A stretch of 64,000 nt of DNA, taken from a virus. Both the position numbers and the translations under genes were made by a program. The stretch covers positions 90,977 to 154,976 of IMG/VR virus record IMGVR_UViG_3300026097_000008; one strand, 5' to 3'. The stretch's first letter is position 1. Each line of letters opens with the position of its first letter. The notes below the pieces were generated by a model. The model was not told the DNA's origin. It saw only the letters and a list, made by a program, of their open reading frames with translations, and searched no databases. This document shows, in pieces, positions 1 to 16,474 of the stretch.

Positions 1-3000
1 AGATTTATTACCGCCATTGTGTAGATTGCCGTCGATTTTTTGTCCTATGGCTGCGGTTCCTAGAGTTGTCACACCTTGTATGTACGGAGAACGATTGTTG
101 ATCCATGTTCTTTCGTCTGCTGGTCCCCAACCTGGATCTAAAGAACAATATGCTCCTCCTGTTGGTCTTTGGAACTGTGCAAACACACCTGGAGGATTAA
201 GTCCACCGCGCAATCCGTCGACAGTACAGTTTCTTAACCCTGTAGTGTCTCTTAGATAGAACATGTCGTCAATTTGACTTCCTAGAACCTGACTTGCAAA
301 TCTTCTGCCTGCAAGAGTAGTTGCATAATTACCGCTAAAGGTTAAATCTCTATTAAAGGCTCTAATTAGAGAATATACGTCTGCTTTTATATTATCCGGG
401 TAAAAGGTTATCGACGGATATGTATCTTCTAAAAAGCCTATGATTTCGTTGTATATAAATTCTCTATTTGCTTGTAAAATAGCACCTGCATTAGCAATAT
501 CTTGATCAGGGTTTGCTTCGTTGGATCCTGTCACAGTAGGATTATTACCGCCTGATAGTAATCTAGCTTCTATTGTGTTTTTGTAATCTGTAATCAAAGC
601 ACTTGTTGCGTTAGTGCCATCTAGATTTGAAGATGCTAGAGTTTTATTTTGGCCAACACCGCCTGTATATCCGCCACTTACATCTTGATTAGTAAGTAAA
701 TTATTTAAGAAAGTAAGAACATAATCTAAATATGCCGAGACGTAAGTATAATGTCCGTCGTATTCGGTTTTTGGACTATTTGCAATTATTGTTGTAGATC
801 TTAATTCGTCGCCCATTACTACACAACCCGCAGGTATAATAATAGGACAATTTTCTTCATATCTTCCTGTTGCAATTGATACCTTTGTCGGAGTAAGAGC
901 AGGTATGTTATCCTCTATATATTCGCATGCATGTCTAATTGTTTTGAATGGAGAGTATAATGTTCCATTTCCTGTAATATCACTTCCTTTTGTAGAAACA
1001 TAGATTACTTCGGCATCGTTAGTGACTTCTCGCCAAAATACTTCTAGTTCTTCACTTACCGAAAGTTTCTGATTTGCTGTTCCAATAGGTATGCGCAACG
1101 AACCTTCGGTACTGCCGTCTCCTACATTTTCTCTGTTTAGACCGTATGATAATAAATCACCAATTTGAAGCATTCCGCCTGGCTGGCCAGCTTGTATGAG
1201 TGTATCCCAGAAATTAAAAGTATTTCCGTTATCTCCTGGAAAATTTAAATTTGACGAAATATGTTCGATATTACACACATAGGCTGTACCTAGATAACTT
1301 ACAACTTCTCCTACAGAATACCTTTGTCCAGATTGCCACTGACTCGAAAATACATTTCCAGGTAGTAGTAATTCCCACTGAGCTGTATCAACTTCTGTAC
1401 CTTCGTCTACTATAATGTTAAGTTGATTTCCTTGATTTGCATTGAAATGACCATAGTAATATAATGTATCCGGTGCGTCAAGTGGCACTGAAAATTCTAT
1501 TGTACGCACTGTAGCATTTTGAAATCCTGTGATATATTGATCTACAGTTAACTCACGACCGTCTAATTTGTAAACTACGCCAGTTGTGTAAGCTGTACCA
1601 CCCAGCACTAAATCTCCATCCTCACTAGTACTAAATTTAAGTGGATGATATAGTGGATCATCCTCTCCTATAAGAGAATATTCGTTGTTAGAGGAATCAG
1701 ATTGATCAAATATATAAGTAGCTCCCTTGATTAGATCAAGCTGTGGTTTTTCTACTCCGTCTATATAAAATGCTCCTGCATTTTGATTTGATGCATTATC
1801 TAGTCCTACCGTGATTACTTTTGTAAGGTTTTTTGCGCTTTCATCTATATCAGTAAGTGCTTGATAAAGTCTGCCGCCTCTAAGAATTATATCACCTGGA
1901 CGATATTCTGTTTCAAGATTCCATTCGTTTGTAGCGTATATGCTTAATGAATTCCCCTGATTAAGACCGTTATGACCAAAATAATACAGGGTAGCCGGCG
2001 CACCAAAGTCAACGGTTATTTCAACTGTGCGTGTAGAAGCTGCTTCGAACCCGTTCATATAATCATTCATAGATACAGCGACACCGTCTAATTTATAAAC
2101 AACTCCTGTAGAATAATGACTAATAACGTCATTATTTCTACCATCACTTATTGTACTAAACATAAATGGATGATATGTTCCTCCAAAGCTACTATTTGTA
2201 GCATCAGATTGATCAAAAATGTAAGTTGATCCTTTTACTAGATCCAGTGTAGGTTTTTCGACACCGTCTATATAAAATACGCCAGTCGCAAGTCCATTAA
2301 CTGTATCCGTACCTACTGTCACAGTCTTTTGCACTAATCTACTAGATCTAAAGTTATATGTTTTTGATAATAAAGACCAATATATAATAGGTATTTGTAC
2401 CGTAATAGACGATGCTCCTGCTATACCAGTTTGATTTTCACTTGCATAATAAAGTGTTTCGGGTGTACCTGTATTAATAGCGATTCTTAGTTCTCGCTGT
2501 GATGCTGCGTCAAATCCTGCTACATATGCAGCTCGATTCGCTACTTGAACTCCATCTAGAAAGTATGTGACTCCGGTACTATAAGCAGTGCCGTCACCTA
2601 ATATTCCATCTTGTGTCGTGCTTAAATCTAGCGGATAACCGTCATTGGTTGCAGAATCCTGATTAAATATATAAATTCCATTAGGCACAAATGTTAGATT
2701 TGGTGTTTGTGTATCGTCTATAAGATAAACATCTCCGCTTCCTCCGTCCTCAACTGTGACAGTATATGTAGTAGTCACGACGGTTTCACTATCTTCTTGT
2801 TCAGCTGAGGTTGATGGTAATTGATTACTATTAGTTAAATTTGCATAATATAAATATCCGCCGTATCTTACAACATCACCAACTTGATATGTTTCTGAAC
2901 TTGACCAATCTTTTTCGTGTTGATATCCTGGAAATTCCAATGTAAAATTTGTTGTACTAAAAGAACTTGTAGAAGTATGTGTTGTATTACATACAAAAAT

Positions 3001-3597
3001 ACTTCCGCCATATTTTACTCTATCGTTTTTTCTATAAGCAGTACTAGAAGTCCAAGCTCCTTTATAGTCTACGCCTTCATAAAATTCTCGCCAGTCGCTA
3101 ATATTATCCTCTAATAACGATCCTGAATTGTGTGCAGTTATACATTCGTATACATAGCCGTTATATTTTACAATTGCACCAGGAGCGTAATCTATGCTAG
3201 TATTCCAATCTCCTAGATAATCGATACTTGCAGCAAACACAGTCCAATTAGAATAATCAGTGACAAAGGATGTAGAAGAATGACTAGCGGTACAAAGATA
3301 TAGATGACCGTTATAAAGCACTATATCACCTAAATTATAATTTACAGAAGTTATCCAATCACCGAGGAAAGATCTACCGCTAGTCATTACTACCCAACGA
3401 GGTTGCGGTTGCGGAGGATTAGACCCTGGTAATATAGCATTTAGATCATTACGAAATGCACTATCTGCAACGTGTGCTATCAAACAAACATAACTTTTTC
3501 CGTTAACACGAATAATGTCATCTCTTCTATAACTTGCTGCGGCTGTCCACTCACCTCGCCATCTATATTTAAATTTATCTAAACTAAATTCTGACAT
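1..3597 (-). CDS. Modular virion surface/fibre protein, partial (3' end outside window)
   Basis: The frame is open from the ATG at 3597 to the window edge, giving at least 1199 residues; the stop lies outside. I translated it by hand and see three kinds of module. Seven carbohydrate-binding (CBM5/12-like) repeats of about 30 residues follow the pattern W-x6-Y-x3-D-x-[IV]-x-[YV]-x-G-x2-Y-x-C, near residues 13, 78, 128, 181, 230, 557 and 750. Three longer repeats near residues 280-385, 424-535 and 592-714 carry YIDGVEKP, YIFDQSDATN and LYYYGH motifs and look cupredoxin-like. From about residue 860 a YVSTKGSD...PFKTIRHACEYI stretch marks a right-handed beta-helix of the pectin-lyase type. Likely an adhesion or decoration protein of the virion; the exact role is inferred. 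It starts 1 base after the next gene's stop, so it is probably the last cistron of the fibre operon. Confidence 0.75.
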   Translation of the reverse strand, partial: MSEFSLDKFKYRWRGEWTAAASYRRDDIIRVNGKSYVCLIAHVADSAFRNDLNAILPGSNPPQPQPRWVVMTSGRSFLGDWITSVNYNLGDIVLYNGHLYLCTASHSSTSFVTDYSNWTVFAASIDYLGDWNTSIDYAPGAIVKYNGYVYECITAHNSGSLLEDNISDWREFYEGVDYKGAWTSSTAYRKNDRVKYGGSIFVCNTTHTSTSSFSTTNFTLEFPGYQHEKDWSSSETYQVGDVVRYGGYLYYANLTNSNQLPSTSAEQEDSETVVTTTYTVTVEDGGSGDVYLIDDTQTPNLTFVPNGIYIFNQDSATNDGYPLDLSTTQDGILGDGTAYSTGVTYFLDGVQVANRAAYVAGFDAASQRELRIAINTGTPETLYYASENQTGIAGASSITVQIPIIYWSLLSKTYNFRSSRLVQKTVTVGTDTVNGLATGVFYIDGVEKPTLDLVKGSTYIFDQSDATNSSFGGTYHPFMFSTISDGRNNDVISHYSTGVVYKLDGVAVSMNDYMNGFEAASTRTVEITVDFGAPATLYYFGHNGLNQGNSLSIYATNEWNLETEYRPGDIILRGGRLYQALTDIDESAKNLTKVITVGLDNASNQNAGAFYIDGVEKPQLDLIKGATYIFDQSDSSNNEYSLIGEDDPLYHPLKFSTSEDGDLVLGGTAYTTGVVYKLDGRELTVDQYITGFQNATVRTIEFSVPLDAPDTLYYYGHFNANQGNQLNIIVDEGTEVDTAQWELLLPGNVFSSQWQSGQRYSVGEVVSYLGTAYVCNIEHISSNLNFPGDNGNTFNFWDTLIQAGQPGGMLQIGDLLSYGLNRENVGDGSTEGSLRIPIGTANQKLSVSEELEVFWREVTNDAEVIYVSTKGSDITGNGTLYSPFKTIRHACEYIEDNIPALTPTKVSIATGRYEENCPIIIPAGCVVMGDELRSTTIIANSPKTEYDGHYTYVSAYLDYVLTFLNNLLTNQDVSGGYTGGVGQNKTLASSNLDGTNATSALITDYKNTIEARLLSGGNNPTVTGSNEANPDQDIANAGAILQANREFIYNEIIGFLEDTYPSITFYPDNIKADVYSLIRAFNRDLTFSGNYATTLAGRRFASQVLGSQIDDMFYLRDTTGLRNCTVDGLRGGLNPPGVFAQFQRPTGGAYCSLDPGWGPADERTWINNRSPYIQGVTTLGTAAIGQKIDGNLHNGGNKS

Positions 3598-3598
3598 T

Positions 3599-4036
3599 TT
3601 AGTATCCTTCGTTTGGTTGGCTATATGTTGTAATTACATCTGTGTCTGGTCCGTCACCGTATGCAGGAGATGATATATTTGTTGGATATGTGTATGTTTC
3701 TGATAATCTCTGAATAAACTGGCCGTCACTAGGGTCTATAAAATATGTTAAACTTCTGTTATCCCATCTAAATTGCGGATAACGTAAATTGTCGTTTACA
3801 ATTTCGTGATCTTCGTTAATTCCTGCCAGGTAATTAATACCTTCTTCAAAATCAAGATAGTTTTCTGCTGCTACACCAATATCGTTTATTACAGCAATAT
3901 TTTCGTCGCCTCCTGATAACTGATCTATTTTTACTAAAAAAAGTTCACCGTCGTCATTTCTACGCATACCATACATATATCTTTTAATAAAACCGTTGAT
4001 TACGTCAGTAGGACTTGTTCCTATATAATATGTCAT
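3599..4036 (-). CDS. Small virion-associated protein, function unknown (145 aa)
   Basis: Complete ORF of 145 residues from ATG at 4036 to TAA at 3599. I do not recognise a domain. It is rich in Asp, Tyr and Gly with no membrane segment or signal peptide, contains the run DNRSLTYFIDPSDGQF near residues 93-108, and has a flexible C-terminus. It sits between two large fibre genes in one tightly packed minus-strand unit (its start overlaps the stop of the preceding gene by one base, TAATG type). That context suggests a small structural or fibre-attachment component. The function is inferred from position only. Confidence 0.6.
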   Translation of the reverse strand: MTYYIGTSPTDVINGFIKRYMYGMRRNDDGELFLVKIDQLSGGDENIAVINDIGVAAENYLDFEEGINYLAGINEDHEIVNDNLRYPQFRWDNRSLTYFIDPSDGQFIQRLSETYTYPTNISSPAYGDGPDTDVITTYSQPNEGY

Positions 4037-4365
4037 TATGTTATCTCCACATAGCTTACTACTACGTCAACTGCATCATCTACACTCGACCTTACAAGCA
4101 ATCTATTACTAGGTGCAAGTACTAGTTTTTCACCTGTACTCACTGCTCTCAAACTAGTTCCTGCTGGTAAAATACTATCTTTTAGATAGTAGCCGCTAAC
4201 ACTAGTATCGTCTTCAACTAACACATCTACGTAAACAAACTGATTTGTTAGATTTGTAAAACTTAAACCAAGTATTGTGACTCTGGTTGTCGGTAGTGTT
4301 TCGTAAATTAACACAGGTACTGTACCACAATTTTTTATTACTGTATTTTTTAATAGTGTTGCCAT
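4036..4365 (-). CDS. Small virion-associated protein, function unknown (109 aa)
   Basis: Complete ORF of 109 residues. The protein is mostly short beta-prone segments (FVYVDVLVEDD, VVVSYVEIT) without cysteines, membrane segments or recognisable catalytic motifs, so it could be a small beta-sandwich. Its beta-rich character resembles the 118-residue protein at 12950-13306, which sits in an equivalent place beside another fibre gene; the two may be distant paralogues. It begins 3 bases downstream of the stop of the 1346-residue fibre gene, and its stop overlaps the next start, so translation is probably coupled. Confidence 0.6.
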   Translation of the reverse strand: MATLLKNTVIKNCGTVPVLIYETLPTTRVTILGLSFTNLTNQFVYVDVLVEDDTSVSGYYLKDSILPAGTSLRAVSTGEKLVLAPSNRLLVRSSVDDAVDVVVSYVEIT

Positions 4366-4368
4366 TTT

Positions 4369-7300
4369 CTATCCAAATATTAAAACTTTTTCAATTGCTA
4401 TATCTTCTGCATCTTGGAAGCTGATACCACCTGATGCTCCAGCAACAGAAACCCAATTAGTCCCGTCAAATAATTCAACCCTTGCATCATCAGTATTGAA
4501 ACGTATCATTCCTGTAACACCTGTTGGTCTAGTGACATTACCCCCAACTGGTAAAACTACTCCATAAGTTCCGTCTATGTTTACATAACCATCACCAGTC
4601 GTTGTGAAAGTAGTAATAGCATCTTCTACAGTATTAGTTATAGTATTGTCTTTAAATCCAAAATTCTCAAAAACAACTCTTCCAGTCCCTTGTGCAGATA
4701 ATTGCAAATCAGTGTTTGTTGTAGTAGTACTTATCACATTACCATCTACTTCAATGTCATCTACGGTTACTCTATTCGCATTAAATCTAGACGAATCTAT
4801 ATCTGCTACTGCTACTCCGTCAATATAAAATCTTATGACGTTGTCATTTGCTCCGGGAGTAAGTTCTGCCGTAATACGAGTATTTCCGTCTAAATCTTGT
4901 AATCCATTTAGCCGTATCCAATTAGTGCCGTCGTATCCTTCAAATTGTGCAGTGTCACTGTTAAATCTAATTTGTCCTGCATTTGCGCTTGGTCGATCTC
5001 CTGTACCCCCTACAGGTAATTTGAGTGCTCCTGTACTATCTATATTAACTAATCCTGTACCAGGTGATAATGTCATATCACCTGTGGTTGTAATAGTACT
5101 GTCTTTTATCGAAAAATCGTCAATAACAATAGATCCGGTTCCTGCTGCACGTAGTTCTAGATCAGAATTAGAAATTGTTGTTGTAATAAAATTATCATCT
5201 ATCAGGATATCGCCAGTCGTAAAGTTATTCGCTTGAATAGTACCAGCACTTTCTATATCATTTACAGTCAACGTACCGGTTATATTTACATTATTACCAA
5301 CGGTTATGTTTCCTGTGACTTCTAAATTTTGAGACATTTGAACATCATTACTTGGTACATTTACTACACCAGACCCGTTCGCACGTAATATTAGATCTGT
5401 ATCTGCTGTTATTGTTTCTACAACATTGTTGTCAATTAATACAGTGTTATTTGTAAAACTGTCTGCTGTTATCAAACCTGTACTAATTATATCAACTGTA
5501 GTAGTTGCTCCGTTTACTGTAAAGTCATTGTTTACTGTAAAATCGTTAGTCGGTATCAGTATTTTACCTGTGCCATTTGCTCGTAGTTCAAGATCAGTAT
5601 TTGAGGATGTAGTAGTGATAAAATTATCGTCTACTAGTATTTCTTCAAACTGTGCAGAAGCACCTACATTAATGTCCTGTTCTACTGTGACATCGCCAGA
5701 CACACTTGTGTCTCCTGTCTGGTCAAAATCTCCTACAAGTGTCACTGTACCTGTAATATTTGTATTAGCAAGAGTTGCGGTTCCATCAACATTAAGATCT
5801 TGATCTATTTGTACATCGTTACTAGGCACAACAACGTTGCCTGAGCCGTTTGCTCGTAAATCCAAATCAGCGTTTGAATCTGTTGTTGTAATGTAATTTT
5901 GTGTAATTTTTATGCCGTCAATGTCTGCTTCATTAACATATATATTACTCCAAGTTTTTGATGCACTACCAAGATTATATGTTGAAGTTAAACTAGGTAA
6001 TAAGTCACTGTCTATACCTGCAACAATTTGTATTGTATCACTAGGGTCATTACCTACAGTAATATTACCCCCAATAGTCACATTTCCTGTGACATCAAGA
6101 TCACCTGTGATATTGACATTATTATTAAGATTGATTATGTCACTACTTGCAGTAAAGTTTACGTCTCCTGACAAGCTTTCTATAGTATTACCACTTATTC
6201 TAAGATTACCAGTATCTATTCTTTCGCCGCTTACAAATGTAGTATCGCCGCCTGTGGTAAATGTTGCACCAGTAGTTAGGTCTATGTTTAGAGCACTTGC
6301 AACAAAGTTTACAGTTCCGTCATCTTGATTTACATAGAATAAATCACCTACTCTAAAATCACCTTTGTGGTCAACACTGTTATAGCGTATTTTTGCACTA
6401 TTAGATTCTACTACTTCATTTTCTTGTATAACTGTAGCTGCGTCATTTGTGACTTCTTTACCATTTCCGATATATGCTAAATTTTGTCCTATAGCATATA
6501 CAATCACGCCGTCGCCGTCGCCTACTAATCCAAAATTTCCGTAAACAGATGCAGAGCCGATCATGCGCATTTCAGCGCCGAAGTCGCGTTTGTCTATGTT
6601 GAGTATTTCTGTGGCTGTTTCTGTGCCGTCACTTATACTTTGTGGAGTAGTATCAAAACCGTCTAAATCATCGAACTTGCCTGCGATACTGATTACATCT
6701 CCATCAACTGCTGCAATAGTTCCTGTAACAACAGTTGAGCTATCAGTTGATGTAAATGTAACTGTTGCACCTTCAGTAAATGTTCCGCTAGTTCCGCCTA
6801 AACGTATATGCGTTTGTCCTGCACTTTTTAAACCTAAATTACTATTATACGCATACAAACTTCTATTTGCAAAATACGTAAAGCTGTTTAGCCATTCAAT
6901 ACGTACACCGTTTGTAGCTACAACACCATCTACACCAGGTACAATAAATGTGACACTATGGAACAGCATACTTGCTTCTTTAGAATTTGCTGTAGCATAT
7001 GAACCGTCTATGTATGCTCCTTTACCTGCGTCACCTGAATTAAATCCTCTTGGATCTTCTGCTGTAGTTGTGCTACCTGCTGTAATTACTGTAACATTTC
7101 TAATATAAGGAGAACGTGTAGTGACTTCAAAGTCTGTTGCGAAACGGAAAGCATATCCGTTGTTAGGGTATACTTTATTTCCATTACTACAGCTAAATGT
7201 TAGATTTGACACAAATACACTATGACCTACATAGCTATCGTGTGCTGCATCTAAATCTATTGTTAGCACACCAGTAGTGTTATCATAAGTTGCATTGTTT

Positions 7301-8409
7301 ATATCGATCGGTGCAGTGCTGTCACTAAAGTCAACAGTTCCGCCACTTACGTATGTATGTGCTTGTGGTGCTGTACCTATGTTAACTTTGATAGTGTTTG
7401 CATCAACAACTTCAGTAATATCAAAATAATTCCCGCCGCTGTAGAAGCCTTTAATAGTAACATCTTCTACAGTGCTTTCACCATTTACAAGTATTGCATC
7501 ATTATAGCGTGTTTCTGTAGTAGGTTGTATTGTGACACTTCTTAAACTTGTACCTTTTAGAGTGACTCCAACTGGTACAGTTAGCGGAAATTCTTCTGTG
7601 TAAACACCGGGATAAATGTGAACAGTATCTCCTGCTGTTGCTAAACTTAGTGCGTATTTGATAGTACCTACAGGATCTTGCTGGTGTGTTCCTGTATTTG
7701 TGTCGCTACCATTTTCGGCAACATAAAAAATATTTCCTTGACGAAGCACTAGATCAACTCCGTCAACTACTAATGCAGTAGAACTAATTGATCCTGCTAC
7801 AAAGTTATCTACCCAAACATCAGACCACTGTTTTCCGCCGCTTAATGGGTCACTTCCTAAGGTATATGTGCTAGTTGTATCCGGTATAATATTGCTTGCT
7901 ACTTCTGCATTGAATGTGACGTTGTCTGTATCAGCATCACCAATTGTAATATTGCCGTCTGCTGTGATATTTCCAGTAGCATGTATATTACCGTCTACGT
8001 TCATAGATGCAGCAACTTCTACTGTGCCTGTTCCGTTGGGTCGTAGTTCTAAATTGGCATTTGAATCATTAGTGCTGATAATGTTGCCTTCAATATCAAT
8101 GCTATCTATTCTTGCACGATTTTGATATACAACAGTGTCTAGTGTTCCTAAGTTTAGGAATCGATTAGGTGTGCTAATTGTATTGCCAACTATGTTAATA
8201 TCAGCAATATCAGCTTCTGTGTCTACAATAAGATTTGTAGTTCTAGTGGTTCCGATTACGTCTAATTCGTGTTGAGGCGCATTTGTTTTGACGCCGATGC
8301 GCTGGTTATTTACATCTAGATATAATAGATCAGTCTCAAAGGCTAAATCAATCCCATTACGGATCAAGTTAGACTTCAAGAGCGGACCTGATATGCGACC
8401 TACAGCCAT
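4369..8409 (-). CDS. Giant beta-helix tail fibre protein (1346 aa)
   Basis: Likely a long virion fibre or spike. The N-terminus (ISGPLLKSNLIRNGIDLAFE, about residues 6-25) matches that of the 1186-residue neighbour and is probably the anchoring module. Residues about 225-650 hold a pectin-lyase-like right-handed beta-helix, marked by NIFYVAENGSDTNTG, DPRGFNSGDAGKGA and NSFTYFANRSLYAY. Most of the rest is built from about six copies of an ITTTxSNxDLELRANGTGxI motif separated by short beta-strand linkers. The C-terminus has a GGNVTRPTGVTGMIRFNTDD...DGTNWV element shared with sister genes. No enzyme active site was recognised, so depolymerase activity is not claimed. A late-type promoter lies 116 bases upstream and GAGGAGAAG precedes the start. 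Confidence 0.8.
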   Translation of the reverse strand: MAVGRISGPLLKSNLIRNGIDLAFETDLLYLDVNNQRIGVKTNAPQHELDVIGTTRTTNLIVDTEADIADINIVGNTISTPNRFLNLGTLDTVVYQNRARIDSIDIEGNIISTNDSNANLELRPNGTGTVEVAASMNVDGNIHATGNITADGNITIGDADTDNVTFNAEVASNIIPDTTSTYTLGSDPLSGGKQWSDVWVDNFVAGSISSTALVVDGVDLVLRQGNIFYVAENGSDTNTGTHQQDPVGTIKYALSLATAGDTVHIYPGVYTEEFPLTVPVGVTLKGTSLRSVTIQPTTETRYNDAILVNGESTVEDVTIKGFYSGGNYFDITEVVDANTIKVNIGTAPQAHTYVSGGTVDFSDSTAPIDINNATYDNTTGVLTIDLDAAHDSYVGHSVFVSNLTFSCSNGNKVYPNNGYAFRFATDFEVTTRSPYIRNVTVITAGSTTTAEDPRGFNSGDAGKGAYIDGSYATANSKEASMLFHSVTFIVPGVDGVVATNGVRIEWLNSFTYFANRSLYAYNSNLGLKSAGQTHIRLGGTSGTFTEGATVTFTSTDSSTVVTGTIAAVDGDVISIAGKFDDLDGFDTTPQSISDGTETATEILNIDKRDFGAEMRMIGSASVYGNFGLVGDGDGVIVYAIGQNLAYIGNGKEVTNDAATVIQENEVVESNSAKIRYNSVDHKGDFRVGDLFYVNQDDGTVNFVASALNIDLTTGATFTTGGDTTFVSGERIDTGNLRISGNTIESLSGDVNFTASSDIINLNNNVNITGDLDVTGNVTIGGNITVGNDPSDTIQIVAGIDSDLLPSLTSTYNLGSASKTWSNIYVNEADIDGIKITQNYITTTDSNADLDLRANGSGNVVVPSNDVQIDQDLNVDGTATLANTNITGTVTLVGDFDQTGDTSVSGDVTVEQDINVGASAQFEEILVDDNFITTTSSNTDLELRANGTGKILIPTNDFTVNNDFTVNGATTTVDIISTGLITADSFTNNTVLIDNNVVETITADTDLILRANGSGVVNVPSNDVQMSQNLEVTGNITVGNNVNITGTLTVNDIESAGTIQANNFTTGDILIDDNFITTTISNSDLELRAAGTGSIVIDDFSIKDSTITTTGDMTLSPGTGLVNIDSTGALKLPVGGTGDRPSANAGQIRFNSDTAQFEGYDGTNWIRLNGLQDLDGNTRITAELTPGANDNVIRFYIDGVAVADIDSSRFNANRVTVDDIEVDGNVISTTTTNTDLQLSAQGTGRVVFENFGFKDNTITNTVEDAITTFTTTGDGYVNIDGTYGVVLPVGGNVTRPTGVTGMIRFNTDDARVELFDGTNWVSVAGASGGISFQDAEDIAIEKVLIFG

Positions 8410-8555
8410 CTCTTCTCCTCAACACGGGGATCCTGTCCCTCTAGCCTAAATTTTCAGCTTGCGCTCTTTGCTGGCTAACCACAGTTTGACCCTGCAATAC
8501 AATGGTCGCTGTACTGCATTAGTAGTATTTATGTGTTTTAAAGAAAAGGTGCTTA
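8410..8555 (-). promoter_or_regulatory. Leader region of the 1346-aa fibre gene
   Basis: This 146-base intergenic stretch holds no gene. In the minus direction it has an ATAAATAC late box at 8525-8532, then a leader of about 110 bases with at least one stem (TGCA-TAC pairing with GTA-TGCA) and a GGGA/TCCC hairpin just before the ribosome binding site. The leader is longer than those of the other late units here. Whether the stems regulate translation is not shown. Confidence 0.5.
8525..8532 (-). promoter_or_regulatory. T4-type late promoter box
   Basis: Minus-strand ATAAATAC, identical to the core found before several other structural units in the window, 116 bases before the start of the 1346-residue fibre gene. 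It fits the T4 late consensus TATAAATA read by a gp55-type sigma factor. Confidence 0.6.
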
Positions 8556-11500
8556 TTACCCGTAAATTAAAGTTTGAATTAGACTTATATCGTCCATTTC
8601 GGCTTCACTTACAGCTTCAAATGCTCCAGCTGATGTTTGCCATTGATCACCAATCCAAGTTTCCATTTCTCCTGAATCTGTATTCACACGAGTTTGACCA
8701 AGGATTGGTGATGCAGGTCTATTGCTGTTTGAGCCTGTAGGTATTTTGACGGCACCGTCGCCGTCAAACTGATAATAACCGTCGTCTGTACTACTAAAAA
8801 CTAGGGGCTCGTCGGTTGCTGTATTTTGAATGGTGCTACCAGAAACTTTAATGTTGTCAATTATAACACCGCCAGATCCGTCTGGTCTTAATTCAAGATC
8901 AGAATTTGAAACTGTTGTGCTTATACCAAGGCCGTCTATAAGTATATCATCAACCTGTAAACCGTGTATATTAATGCCGTCGCTATCAAAATTTCCTACT
9001 TGTATATTTGCAATATCTAATAATAATGTATCATTTGTTGGGTGGGCTCTTAAATTAGTTAAGCTATTATCTGAGTAAACACCGTTAAAAAATATATTTG
9101 ATGTAGCATATCCTTGAAATAAATTTTTATCAGTATTCAACCGTATTTGAGATTGGGTGAGTGTATCGTCAGGTCCAATTGGTAATTTTAATGCTTTAGT
9201 ACTATCAATAATTAATTGATCTTCAACATCTAATACAATGTCTGTAAGCGAACTATCCGGAGTTGTTTTACTACCTATAGTATTGTTTGTAAATTCAAGA
9301 ATCTCTAAATATATACTTCCAGCACCGGCTCCGCGGAGTTCAAGATTTGAATTAGAATTAGTGGTTGTAATTACATTATCAAATATTTGAATATCAGTAC
9401 TACTGGTCATATCTTCCATTGCAAAGCTATCTGTGATATTAATCGCGCCAACTGTGATAGAGTCAGAGGTTAGATTTTCTCCAGAGATATTATTAGAAGT
9501 AGTTAAATTTTGTGTAATATTCACATCATTACTAAAAAGTACATTTCCTGTTGCACGTATGTCAAGATCAGCGTTTGATATATGAGTTTCTATTATGTTT
9601 GTCTGAGTGCGCACTGTACTATTATCAAAATTTACTGCTTCTACTTGTGTTGCACTTATCCAATCACTGGAATAAACTGTTCCTTGTGTATCAAAGTTAT
9701 TTGTTAATACTAAATCTTCTGTAGGAACAAGTATATTTCCAGTACCTGAAGCACGTAATTCAAAATCTGTATTAGAAGTTGTAGTGGTTATATAATTATC
9801 ATCGATTTTTATTTCTTCAAATTGCGCAATTTGAGCTACGTTTAGATTTTGGGTTATTGTTAAATTTGTAGTAGAAAAATTATTATTAAGTGCAATAGCA
9901 CCTGCAGTTGTTAAATCATTTGTAGAAAGATTGTTTATAAAAGTAGTGGTTTGAACTTGAAGATTGTTAGTAATATTTAAATTTTCATCTTCAAAATATA
10001 TACGTCCGGTACCGTTTGCGCGAAATTCAAGGTCTGCATTTGAATCATTAGTAGTAATTACATTATCAAATAATTGTACGTCACCTAAGTTTGCTTGACT
10101 TCCGTGTACTATATTCCAAACTTTTGTTGGGCTTCCTAGATCAAATTGGAGAGTTTGATTTGGTACAAGATCCTGATCAAAATCTACATTAAAGTCTACT
10201 GTATCCGTTGACTGATCACCTATAGTATTCAGTGTGCCATCAAAACTGAGATTTCCTGTAATATCAAGATCTTTTAAAATATTAGTGCTAGATGTAAAAT
10301 TTATATTTCCAGCCGCACTGTCTATTTCAATATTTCCAGACAGACTACGGATAGTGTTTTCTCTAAAACGAATATTTCCTGTTTCTACTCTTGTGCCGTC
10401 AATAAATGTTGTACTGCCGTTTGTAGTCACGGTCATGCCGCCTAACGAATCAATATCCGCTTCGGTTAAAACTAAGCTTGTTTCTCCTGATTCCTGATCA
10501 ACTAAAAAATTGTTGCCTACTCTAAAATTGCCTAAATGATCTTCTGTTTGGAAATATATTCTACCAGAATTAAGTTCTGACACTTCTTGGCTCTGTATAA
10601 CTCTACTTGGGTCATTATCTACAAACTTGCCGGCGCCTATATAGGCCATGTTGTGTTGTATTAAGTACATTAAACAATCAGAGCCATCTGCTACTGCGCC
10701 ATAATTACCGTACACGTTTGCACTACCAATAGAGCGTATTTCTGCACCATACTTTACAGTACTGCCATCAGTACTTAAATGACCAGTAACTCCGTCGAAT
10801 GCATATAAACCTCTATTCGCAAAATATGTAAAACTGTTAAGCCATTCTACCCTAACACCATTGGTCATTGTAAGGCCGTCCACTCCGGGTGTGATAAAGG
10901 TCACACTATGAAACAACATACTTGCTTCTTCGCTTGCGCTTAAAACATCAGCACCATCTACCAAAGCACCTTTACCTGCGTCGCCGCTAGCAAACCCCCT
11001 AGGATCACTTGCACTAGTTGTAGTGCCTTTGGTGATAACTGTGACATTTTGTATATATGGAGAACGTGTTGTGACTACAGTATTAGGTGCAAAACGGAAG
11101 GCGTACCCGGTATCATTTCCGCTGTCATAATAAAAATCAGTAATAGTAAGATTTTGAACTGTACTTTCACCATTTAGGTGGAAAATATCTTTTGACTGAT
11201 CTGCACTCGTTGGACGTATAAACGTATTCCTGTAATCTTCCCCTACAATATTAACATTAGTAGGAACAACTAGTGGAAGTTCTTCTTCGTATCCGCCAGC
11301 GTATACATAGATTGTGACTGGCCCACTTGTACTTGCATCTGCAAAATCTAAAGCACGTTTTAAAGTTTTAAAAGGACCATTTGGATGATCACCTACATTA
11401 GAATCGTTGCCGTTTTCAGCTACATAAATTATATTTCCTTGCCTACTAGATAGGAAGACCGGTCCTACTGCAACACTAGCAGTTGTAATGCTTTGACCGT

Positions 11501-12146: not shown

Positions 12147-12950
12147 TTATTTGTTGAAATTATGTAGGACTGTTACAGGCTTATCAAGATCAACCGGCGA
12201 CGTAAAAGATAGATACCAACCTGGTAAATATGGTCCGGTGCTTGAACCTACTTCTAGAATAAACCCAGTGCTAGAAACATAGTTTCCAATATTTGCACCT
12301 GATGTGTCTACGGCTAATTCTAAACGTGTAGCAGTTGGTGCGCTTACAACTCCATGACTTCCTGGTGAGCTAGAATCATCAGTATTCAAGTTTTCTAAAT
12401 TATCATCAGTACTAGATTCAACACCACTAACATACACTTGATCTCCGGCGCTTAATCCGTGAGATCCTGATAATTCTATTACAGTTGTTGTGCCTACACT
12501 AATAATATTAATTACTTCTAATCTATTACCAGGATTTTGTGTTAGTGTATAGTTTGTACCAAAAATTTGAAATACATTTTCTACAAATACAAGTATGTCT
12601 GTAGATCCGCCGCTGTTTTGTGGACTAGGGTAATCTGTATCGCCGTTATCTAAAGGTCCAAATAGTGTTTCAACAGCATCGCCTGAGCCAAGATTTTGTT
12701 GTACAATAGTCCTTGGTTCTTTATAACGACCTTTGCGCCAGGCTCCATCTTGATAAAATTCAAATTCGTTAGCAGTTGTATTGTAGCGTATATGACCGTT
12801 TGTAGGATTGTCAGGACGCTGCGCTTCTGTACCTTTTGGTACAAGCATAACATTAGTACTATCTACAACTACCTGGTCGTTAACATCATACTTAACGCCC
12901 TTTCCGTAAATATTACGTAGATTAGTATTTTGCGCTTTTAATAATCTCAT
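12147..12950 (-). CDS. Fibre-associated virion protein (267 aa)
   Basis: A 267-residue protein. Residues about 35-75 (LVPKGTEAQRPDNPTNGHIR...FYQDGAWRKG) are the same GxxxRPxxPxxGxIRYNTxxxxFExYxDGxW module that ends both giant fibres, here placed near the N-terminus. The remainder is beta-rich with a central VIELSGSHGLSAGDQVYVSG segment. It probably caps, joins or chaperones a fibre; this is inferred from module sharing and position. Its start overlaps the stop of the preceding gene by one base (TAATG). Confidence 0.65.
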   Translation of the reverse strand: MRLLKAQNTNLRNIYGKGVKYDVNDQVVVDSTNVMLVPKGTEAQRPDNPTNGHIRYNTTANEFEFYQDGAWRKGRYKEPRTIVQQNLGSGDAVETLFGPLDNGDTDYPSPQNSGGSTDILVFVENVFQIFGTNYTLTQNPGNRLEVINIISVGTTTVIELSGSHGLSAGDQVYVSGVESSTDDNLENLNTDDSSSPGSHGVVSAPTATRLELAVDTSGANIGNYVSSTGFILEVGSSTGPYLPGWYLSFTSPVDLDKPVTVLHNFNK

Positions 12951-13306
12951 TAAACTTCCAAATAGCTAATGGTTGCTGCCAAATCTGTATTACTACCGCC
13001 TACATCAGGCTCTGCAACAAAAGCCACAACATCACCTGCATCTAAAACAACACGCTCTGTGTCAAATGTAAAAGTTTCTCCTGCAGGTAATGTCAGTTGT
13101 CTAACTACGCATGTTCTTGTATTAGACAATGCTTGACCGTTAGGAATTAAGTGTAAATCAAATATTGCATCGTGCGATGCTGCATCAACTGCACCCGGGT
13201 CGTATGTATTACAAACAAGTATATTTGTAATTGCATATTGCGTATCTGCAGGCACAGTTATAATATCTAATTGTGTGGTTGTAAGTCTTTGATTTACTAT
13301 TGCCAT
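12950..13306 (-). CDS. Small virion-associated protein (118 aa)
   Basis: Complete 118-residue ORF with an AGAGGAAA ribosome binding site. The sequence alternates hydrophobic and polar residues in strands (DTQYAITNILVCNTY, GDVVAFVAEPDVGG), suggesting a single small beta-sandwich domain. No catalytic or membrane features were seen. It lies in the fibre operon between two fibre-like genes. Similar proteins in marine T4-like phages are generally virion components, but I cannot name the family. Confidence 0.6.
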   Translation of the reverse strand: MAIVNQRLTTTQLDIITVPADTQYAITNILVCNTYDPGAVDAASHDAIFDLHLIPNGQALSNTRTCVVRQLTLPAGETFTFDTERVVLDAGDVVAFVAEPDVGGSNTDLAATISYLEV

Positions 13307-14358: not shown

Positions 14359-14844
14359 TTAGATTGCTGTAAGAATAAGCACGTTTTCAGCAGAGTCGTT
14401 ATCAACATACCAAGTATACTGGTTGTCGTCGAACCCTGTAATCTTACGTCCTGAAATTTTCTTTACAAAGACTTGAGTTCCTGAATCAGTTCCTACAAAT
14501 CCACGTAGTACCATTTCGTTATTACCAATGCCCGACGACCCGTCATCATCCACAAGTTTACATACTCCTACGCCGTTAGCTTCTGAATATACTTTGAATC
14601 TACGAGCACCTTTTTGTTGTAAAATATAGCAACTGTTTGGTCCATCATCTTGCACATCTACCGCTGCTGTGCTTGAAACTTTAGCTTTGTACACTGGAAT
14701 GTTATATCCTTTTTGACGATCTGTGCTTGCAGATGTAGTATCAAATCCGTGGATATTACGGCCGTCTCCTGTATCAGGGTATCCTGATGTGCTTGTTGTT
14801 GATCCTAGTGGACCGAAGTTCTTTTTACCTAGTGGTCTTCCCAT
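14359..14844 (-). CDS. Probable head or virion decoration protein downstream of gp23 (161 aa)
   Basis: A 161-residue protein beginning MGRPLGKKNFGPLG, followed by a Ser/Thr/Gly-rich linker and a beta-rich C-terminal half (CYILQQKGARRFKVYSE, VLRGFVGTDSGTQVFVKKI). No known motif was found. It is the first gene after the major capsid gene on the same strand but is separated from it by a terminator and an RNA element, and has its own late box at 14939-14946 and a strong AAAAGGAGAAAA ribosome binding site. Independent strong late expression next to gp23 suggests an abundant virion protein, possibly capsid decoration. That is inference. Confidence 0.55.
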   Translation of the reverse strand: MGRPLGKKNFGPLGSTTSTSGYPDTGDGRNIHGFDTTSASTDRQKGYNIPVYKAKVSSTAAVDVQDDGPNSCYILQQKGARRFKVYSEANGVGVCKLVDDDGSSGIGNNEMVLRGFVGTDSGTQVFVKKISGRKITGFDDNQYTWYVDNDSAENVLILTAI

Positions 14845-14938
14845 TTGTTTTCTCCTTTTTAAGAAGTCCGATGCAGGTTCTAGCTGCTACGCTGTGGGTA
14901 CAGCATAAGTCCGCCTCGCGGCACACTATCTGACATAT

Positions 14939-14946
14939 GTATTTAT
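14939..14946 (-). promoter_or_regulatory. T4-type late promoter box
   Basis: Minus-strand ATAAATAC, just downstream of the RNA terminator at 14957-14988 and 95 bases before the 161-residue gene. The leader between them has a CCGC-GAG-GCGG hairpin and a strong ribosome binding site. Confidence 0.65.
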
Positions 14947-14954
14947 CAAAAGAG

Positions 14955-15199
14955 AAAAAAGCCCGACACAGTTAAGCATCGGGCTTTATAAAAAAGTGGG
15001 TGAAGGACTTGGGTTTACCTCCAACTAAGCGCCTAGATACCTTTCATCGTTAACACTTAGAACCTTGCTCTGTCTAGTATGACAGTGTGCGTACTCCTAG
15101 TCTCCTAAGTCTACGCCGGGCACTACCCCTAACAAGTGCGCTTATCCTCTCTAGAAACAGGATTATTAGCGCCAACCCTTGTAACAACGTCTTGCTACA
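14955..15199 (-). ncRNA. Candidate structured small RNA (about 245 nt), unassigned family
   Basis: A gene-free stretch lies between its own sigma70-type promoter and an intrinsic terminator. On the minus strand I can draw, in order: P1 15180-15199 (TGTAGCAA / TTGTTACA, loop GACG), starting at the predicted +1; P2 15138-15172 (GCGCT / AGCGC, inner ATCCT / AGGAT); P3 15089-15116 (GCGTA / TACGC, a GA/AG internal loop, CTTAG / CTAGG capped by GAGA, a GNRA tetraloop); P4 15070-15085 (CTGTC / GACAG); P5 15025-15060 (CTAAGTG / CGCTTAG); P6 15002-15022 (GGAGG / CCTTC); then the terminator. G-U pairs in P1, P3, P5 and P6 become A-C mismatches on the plus strand, so the RNA is read from the minus strand. 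I do not recognise a known family. Function is unknown; an early regulatory RNA is the simplest guess. Confidence 0.65.
14957..14988 (-). terminator. Intrinsic terminator of the structured RNA
   Basis: Minus-strand hairpin with an eight-base stem AAGCCCGA / TCGGGCTT (14979-14986 pairing with 14959-14966), followed by TTTT and a pyrimidine-rich run. It ends the transcript from the sigma70 promoter at 15206-15233 and insulates the next late unit. Confidence 0.8.
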
Positions 15200-15205
15200 G
15201 TAATA

Positions 15206-15233
15206 ATAATAACATCACTGCAACAAATGTCAA
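15206..15233 (-). promoter_or_regulatory. sigma70-type promoter of the structured RNA
   Basis: Minus-strand TTGACA at 15228-15233, a 16-base spacer, and TATTAT at 15206-15211. The predicted start is near 15199, exactly where stem P1 of the RNA begins. It lies downstream of the gp23 terminator, so the RNA would be transcribed independently of the capsid gene. Confidence 0.7.
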
Positions 15234-15255: not shown

Positions 15256-15283
15256 AAAAAAAGGCCCCGTAGGGCCTTTTTCT
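15256..15283 (-). terminator. Intrinsic terminator of the gp23 transcript
   Basis: Hairpin AAAAAGGCCC / GGGCCTTTTT (15258-15267 with 15272-15281), loop of four bases, followed on the minus strand by a run of T. It lies 22 bases after the capsid gene stop. Confidence 0.85.
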
Positions 15284-15304: not shown

Positions 15305-16474
15305 TTAGCTGAATGACAAGTTCCCAGTTGTAACTGTGATCTCGTCTAGGTAGTCAGCTGCATTACCTAGTGACGATGCTGTGTTTGATAGCTCAACATA
15401 ACCATAACGTGTCATGAATGATACGACTGGCTCAAATGTTGATGGATCTAGTACAACACCACTGCTCATCAATGGAATGTATGGGCAGTAGAACGCTGCT
15501 GCGTCTGATTCTGAAGTACCTTTGTACCCAACAAGAATGTTGTCATCAGATGCATATGTGTTTACATACACTTTCATTGCATTGTTCAATGTACCAACCA
15601 TCTTAGTGTTAGTTGGTGCTTCGAATGTACCTTCTGTTGTACGTGCAAACGCTGAAGTAGTTGCTGACTGTAGGATTGTTAACACTGTTGGTGAAACAAC
15701 TGCCCAATTACCAGCACCACGACGTGTACGCTGTGCGATACGGTTTGCTGCGCGGTTCATAAGAACTGCTAGAGCAGCATGCTCGTCGCCAACGAATGTT
15801 GCAGTACCACTTACTGCTGCCTGATCGTATGTATCAGTTGCACCAGCTAGTGTGAATAGTGAAGCAAGTACTTCTTGGTCGATTTCAGCAGTAATCTCTT
15901 GAGCAAGTGCTGCCATGATTTCTGCTTCTACGTCGATGCCGTGCTGCGACTGAGCGTCTTGTGCAGACTCAAAAGTCCAACGTGCGCTTAGTTTACGAGT
16001 CTTAGCTTCAACTGTTTGCTTCAAGATTTGAATGCTTAGTCTGTTTCCAGCTGCACCTTCTAGTGCTGCTGTTGCATCAGCTTTAGCAGTTGTAGCATTA
16101 CCCGAGTATGCTTCTGCAATCTTGAATGGGCTTAGAGCCTCTTCGCCTGCTACTGCGCCGCTTGCGTCTGAGCCAGCTGTGTCCGAATAACGAACACGTA
16201 ATGTGTGGATTTGACCCACAGGACCAGTCATAGGCTGAACACCTACAAGCTCGTTTGCAATGACTGTTGGCATTACACGACGAATAACTGGAAGAATAAC
16301 ACGGTTAAGTGTTGCGATATTACCGGCAGAGGTAGCACCAGCTGTAGCAGTCTCTGCGAGATACGAGCGAGTATTCTCTAGAGTAGTTGCCATAACAGAT
16401 TTCTTTGTGCCTTGTAGGCCTTCAAGTAGAGCTGTTTTGGTGTCCTGCCAGCGACTTTCTAGTAGTTCTGACAT
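15305..16474 (-). CDS. gp23: Major capsid protein gp23
   Basis: T4-type major capsid protein, 389 residues (T4 gp23 is about 520). Recognised from the N-terminal LNRVILPVIRRVMPTVIANE and GPVGQIHTLRVRYSD segments and the overall HK97-fold layout. An LAE motif at residues 39-41 fits the gp21 protease consensus, so the first 41 residues are probably removed, leaving about 348. It assembles around the gp22 scaffold on the gp20 portal. It follows gp22 after 12 bases with an AAAGGAGAT ribosome binding site and ends in a strong terminator, as expected for the most abundant virion protein. No clear late box is directly upstream; it may be transcribed from a more distant start, or from the TTATAAAAGG sequence just before the gene. 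Confidence 0.95.
   Translation of the reverse strand: MSELLESRWQDTKTALLEGLQGTKKSVMATTLENTRSYLAETATAGATSAGNIATLNRVILPVIRRVMPTVIANELVGVQPMTGPVGQIHTLRVRYSDTAGSDASGAVAGEEALSPFKIAEAYSGNATTAKADATAALEGAAGNRLSIQILKQTVEAKTRKLSARWTFESAQDAQSQHGIDVEAEIMAALAQEITAEIDQEVLASLFTLAGATDTYDQAAVSGTATFVGDEHAALAVLMNRAANRIAQRTRRGAGNWAVVSPTVLTILQSATTSAFARTTEGTFEAPTNTKMVGTLNNAMKVYVNTYASDDNILVGYKGTSESDAAAFYCPYIPLMSSGVVLDPSTFEPVVSFMTRYGYVELSNTASSLGNAADYLDEITVTTGNLSFS

Follow-up and report, generated by a model that had tools for sequence, protein, structure and literature searches.

The interval 14955-15233 (minus strand) of an uncultured T4-like phage lies between the major capsid gene, gp23, and the late gene that follows. 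It contains no open reading frame (ORF) as long as 50 aa; counting both strands, there are only five, of 29-38 aa. We analysed the whole stretch of 64,000 nucleotides around it (the window, part of genome G000). The first-pass annotation had proposed here a structured, apparently undescribed minus-strand RNA with its own promoter and terminator, and promoter, fold and terminator could all be located. The features are as follows:

15305..16474, minus strand: gp23 major capsid gene, the upstream neighbour (Pfam PF07068, 340 bits; PHROG 138)
15256..15283, minus strand: intrinsic terminator of gp23; an equivalent is kept in relatives that lack manA
15228..15233, minus strand: -35 hexamer TTGACA of a promoter kept in 58 of 59 distinct copies
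15206..15211, minus strand: -10 hexamer TATTAT with preceding TG; predicted +1 at about 15199
14993..15197, minus strand: manA RNA (RF01745), full-length match to model positions 1-192
14989-15199, minus strand: manA RNA as matched by the clade's own model
15180..15199, minus strand: 5' hairpin UGUAGCAA-GACG-UUGUUACA, a clade helix (helix 1) changing on both sides
15175..15178, minus strand: GGGU, 5' strand of the enclosing helix, pairing with ACCC at 14998-15001
14998..15001, minus strand: 3' side of the enclosing helix, ACCC, partner of GGGU at 15175..15178
15122..15125, minus strand: loop UAGU, proposed kissing contact with ACUA at 15075-15078
15075..15078, minus strand: loop ACUA, proposed partner of UAGU at 15122-15125
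15101..15104, minus strand: GAGA tetraloop, near-invariant across the clade
14958..14987, minus strand: intrinsic terminator of the manA unit, a 12-pair stem followed by T's
14939..14947, minus strand: late-type promoter GATAAATAC, which belongs to the following gene and not to the RNA unit; past the manA terminator
14842..14925, minus strand: freshwater-2 RNA (RF02980), leader of the next gene, with ribosome binding site (RBS) and start codon included
14359..14844, minus strand: 161-aa ORF (MGRPLGKK...), no family match

Missing from the earlier annotation were the membership in manA, freshwater-2 as the leader of the next gene, the GGGU/ACCC helix, the loop-loop contact and the late promoter GATAAATAC.

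The RNA proved to belong to a known family. Rfam assigned 14993-15197 to RF01745 with 78.6 bits against a curated cut-off of 55.2, over model positions 1-192 and with E = 2.6e-18 over the 64-kb window, and manA had been described as a riboswitch candidate occurring in T4-like cyanophages, two gamma-proteobacteria and marine metagenomes (Weinberg et al. 2010, PMC2864571). The comparison with Rfam that the first-pass annotation had itself suggested thus disposed of its claim of a new RNA; its view that the RNA is neither a tRNA nor a tmRNA held, ARAGORN and Rfam giving no such match, while its view that the RNA belongs to no other family did not. In the reciprocal search a covariance model built from the manA copies of the window's clade (R1) recovered the cyanophage manAs with E values of 5e-16 to 7e-5, confirming at the level of sequence and pairing that the two are one family. 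The window copy shares with manA all helices, the GUxGU and AC-containing loops and the 5' hairpin with its GACG loop, as well as the T4-like phage setting and a promoter directly upstream. It differs in being divergent (78.6 bits versus about 120-190 in cyanophage copies), in belonging to a phage not close to the known cyanophages, and in being isolated by a promoter and a terminator, whereas manA is filed as a cis-regulatory element of the 5' UTRs of metabolic genes. Most copies of the window's clade score below the Rfam cut-off and are thus missed by annotation, which would suit a new, undescribed family; yet the window copy itself clears the cut-off end to end and R1 finds the cyanophage manAs, and these two matches make such a family extremely improbable and led us to discard it.

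The RNA is not a chance feature, given the Rfam E value and the homologues with covarying pairs. For 14957-15201 the predicted folding energy on the minus strand is -88.6 kcal/mol (z -4.35, none of 200 shuffles being as good) whereas the plus strand reaches a z of only -0.95, and the minus-strand assignment made earlier is therefore right. Instead of the six stems described at that time about ten helices are predicted; the GAGA tetraloop is indeed present, at 15104-15101, within a helix supported by the alignment. This alignment comprises 41 sequences (40 clade copies and the window copy) and 49 pairs, of which 34 change on both sides, with standard pairs in 94.7% of cells, counts that are inflated by relatedness and refer to a structure derived from the same alignment. 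None of 500 shuffles reached the observed level of pairing, and all slid versions were far lower. Covarying pairs among homologues, which had been named as a check, are thus present. The enclosing helix reads GGGU/ACCC in the window, GAUAG/CUAUC in most of the clade, GCUUUG/CAAAGC in the contig L197 and GGGAG/CUCCC in the cyanophages. Furthermore, two manA loops may kiss, to judge from their complementarity: the candidates are UAGU (15125-15122) with ACUA (15078-15075) in the window and UGGU with ACCA in the cyanophages. Among 95 copies the loop triplets are AGU/ACU in 30, GGU/ACC in 56 and other combinations in 9, and exactly complementary triplets occur in 86 of the 95 versus 50 by permutation, but p is 0.07 when distinct loop pairs within the clade are counted. 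The manA figure of 2010 marks a weakly supported pseudoknot (PMC2864571).

The promoter in the window, TTGACA-16-TATTAT on the minus strand, matches the consensus at 11 of 12 positions and has the TG of an extended -10 element. A sigma-70-type promoter with at least 9 of 12 matches stands just upstream of the RNA in 58 of 59 distinct flanked copies, the -10 hexamer ending 0-14 nt, mostly 5-8 nt, before the RNA start (59 distinct copies), and is found in 20 of 20 copies that were identified through gp23 instead of by a sequence pattern. Promoters of this quality occur in 46 of 47 upstream regions versus 5.4% of shuffled upstream DNA. On the other side a terminator lies within 76 nt of manA in 42 of the 59 distinct copies and a late-type promoter within 230 nt in 48 of the 59, and 40 copies carry 34 different terminators. 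The earlier proposal of an early-type promoter and an own terminator, apart from capsid transcription, was borne out by TTGACA-16-TATTAT, the gp23 terminator (15283-15256) and the manA terminator (14987-14958). The same elements bear on the idea that the RNA is a processed by-product of gp23 or tRNA transcripts, the structure of which would protect or process its neighbours, for instance by forming a stable 3' end or by acting as a spacer, and have no target of its own. Although manA often lies behind gp23 and in tRNA clusters, a terminator stands between gp23 and manA, manA has its own promoter, and its loops and helices are kept beyond the needs of a simple roadblock, which renders this origin highly doubtful. 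At cyanophage loci such as L026 and L211 the hairpin of the upstream gp23 terminator (TTGACACCCTC) contains the manA -35 box, hence terminator and promoter share bases there.

The window unit is likely to be an accessory, early-transcribed, stand-alone manA RNA gene acting in trans. As a small accessory module lying between gp23 and the late gene behind it, the unit would be read by host-type (sigma-70) RNA polymerase from about 15199 to a stop at about 14955, giving a transcript of about 210 nt of manA plus the terminator hairpin. This RNA would form the 5' hairpin and a multi-branched domain, with GGGU/ACCC as closing helix of the domain and the UAGU/ACUA loop contact holding it together, and the free RNA would act in trans, the next gene being outside its control. 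Early timing is suggested by the promoter type alone. Outside the window, at 500-10500 of G000, about twenty TTGACA-17-TATAGT/TATACT promoters and three tRNA genes occur in 10 kb, the promoters on one strand; this is presumably an early-type region with the same promoter type as manA. Several genes of the window have GATAAATA-type late promoters.

The order promoter, manA, terminator, gene would also fit a terminator-type riboswitch or attenuator, in which a ligand-sensing manA sets the read-through at 14958-14987 into the freshwater-2 leader and the 161-aa gene, and manA was published as a riboswitch candidate (PMC2864571). In the window one arm of the terminator pairs with manA at -13.8 kcal/mol versus -8.5 kcal/mol for swapped terminators, but over 40 copies a terminator from the same locus had no advantage over a swapped one in pairing with manA (p 0.72 and 0.17). 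Anti-terminator pairing between manA and its own terminator was rejected for this lack of excess over the swapped controls, and conserved alternative pairing with an expression platform was not found in the same comparison. Nor does the sequence present manA as a 5' UTR co-transcribed with a controlled gene, since the terminator and the late promoter intervene. The downstream gene has its own late promoter, retained where manA is absent, and its own leader, and would thus not be controlled by manA. This leader, freshwater-2 (73.1 bits versus a cut-off of 49.9 at 14842-14925), ends at the RBS and start codon, adjoins manA downstream, would be transcribed from the late promoter and is found whether or not manA is there. 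Furthermore, the downstream genes vary from copy to copy, and where manA sits in a tRNA cluster or precedes a tRNA there is no neighbouring ORF for it to regulate. We therefore consider a riboswitch unlikely at this locus.

That the manA unit is transcribed independently is well supported by these sequence features and is at odds with the listing of this RNA as a riboswitch candidate of the cis-regulatory type. A phage paper of 2023 still handles manA as cis-regulatory (PMC9964418), and earlier doubts about this filing may exist beyond the openly licensed papers searched. Against a stand-alone RNA gene count the type Cis-reg that RF01745 carries in Rfam and the start of an ORF within 50 nt after manA in about 36 of 61 distinct cyanophage loci. 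The ORFs in question are of many different families, and their frequency makes a leader or dual role possible for the cyanophage copies directly before ORFs. A promoter is present in 46 of the 61 loci, a nearby terminator in 12 and a tRNA directly after manA in 4.

The unit furthermore behaves as a module. In an empty-site comparison of relatives of the next (161-aa) gene (L002-L005), the order in L003, L004 and L005 is gp23, gp23 terminator, late promoter GATAAATAC, freshwater-2, gene, and the manA unit is missing; L002 has the unit. This implies that the unit is gained or lost as a block with the neighbour left intact. On the gp23 tree the presence of manA is patchy, with 13 changes, at least 4 of them forced by well-supported branches, and in most of the manA-less phages looked at the space behind gp23 is either empty or occupied by small ORFs. 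In L270 (4194-4340) a decaying manA is cut off mid-way and joined directly to the late promoter. Among 80 viral contigs with a gp23 like that of the window, the Rfam model detected 16 carriers of manA among the first 50, with 5 scoring above the cut-off, and 3 among the remaining 30, with none above it; R1 raised the count to 25 of 80, mostly below the Rfam cut-off and all 25 downstream of gp23 on the same strand. Thus the interval does recur in relatives, as the first-pass annotation had proposed to check. The cyanophages P-RSM1 and P-RSM4 likewise have manA behind gp23, and its absence from L136-L185, 50 contigs whose cyanophage-type gp23 is more distantly related, indicates that it is patchy there too.

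A pattern scan for the clade's manA core found at least 120 viral contigs, and most of the clade goes unseen by Rfam at its cut-off. The loci so selected share the core (which includes one strand of the enclosing helix and portions of the helix after it) by construction, hence its conservation in them is no evidence; promoter, terminator and remaining helices lie outside the pattern. Among the phage isolates searched there was no DNA match to the interval or to a clade manA and no tblastn match to the 161-aa protein, and no cultured phage with a copy of the window's clade was found. A 16-base manA pattern hit bacterial genomes mostly by chance, with real copies in 3 of 20 genomes tested, on contigs that are possibly viral. 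In G000 we found no second manA and no other Rfam RNA apart from three tRNAs. In L103 (3230-3520) the slot behind gp23 holds a promoter-like site and a folded RNA, possibly a remote manA (11.2 bits with the clade model, filters off).

With regard to the target of a trans-acting manA, the genomic company gives a hint. The RNA lies inside tRNA clusters in L288 and L289 and is directly followed by tRNA-Gly(TCC) in L220, L228 and L274, by tRNA-Gly also in cyanophage S-SSM7, and tRNA-Asn accompanies several cyanophage copies. This recurrence in two phage lineages makes the translation or tRNA machinery our preferred, if tentative, guess. As a special case of trans action, manA might be an antisense or base-pairing sRNA, its exposed loops seeding on host or phage mRNAs; as predicted it would resemble typical bacterial sRNAs in its short length, its separate transcription and the terminator at its end, but the RNA is mostly paired and its conserved loops are apparently engaged with each other, and we regard this mode of action as improbable. 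Small stable RNAs of unknown function, RNAs C and D, lie within the tRNA cluster of T4, a setting like that of manA in L288 and L289, and are likened to it by setting alone. GOLLD and ROOL are also structured non-coding phage RNAs of unknown function that often occur near tRNA islands (PMC12286853), yet they are far larger and unrelated to manA in sequence and structure.

manA is a widespread RNA of marine phages that in dozens of relatives has its own promoter and stop signal. For the class as a whole, we see an evenly balanced case for small, promoter-driven RNA genes of phages that move as modules among late genes and tRNA clusters and, rather than serving as riboswitches, work in trans in the infected cell; the Cis-reg filing would then stem from copies that happen to precede genes. 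Should manA prove to be an independent RNA gene, looking for a ligand and for a gene under its control would be misdirected.

Other RNAs were met on contigs of the same clade. L222, which also carries manA, has a permuted (alpha-type) tmRNA at 12888-13275 (118 bits). Directly 3' of manA in L222, L245, L256, L277 and L294 (and L241) there are two further conserved, unannotated and apparently structured RNAs, neither with an Rfam match above the cut-off; one has a covarying closing stem (GAAATACACAC/GTGTGTATTTC, AATATACACAC/GTGTGTATATT, AGTATACACGC/GTGTGTATACT) and the other the core GCGCCGTAATACGC.
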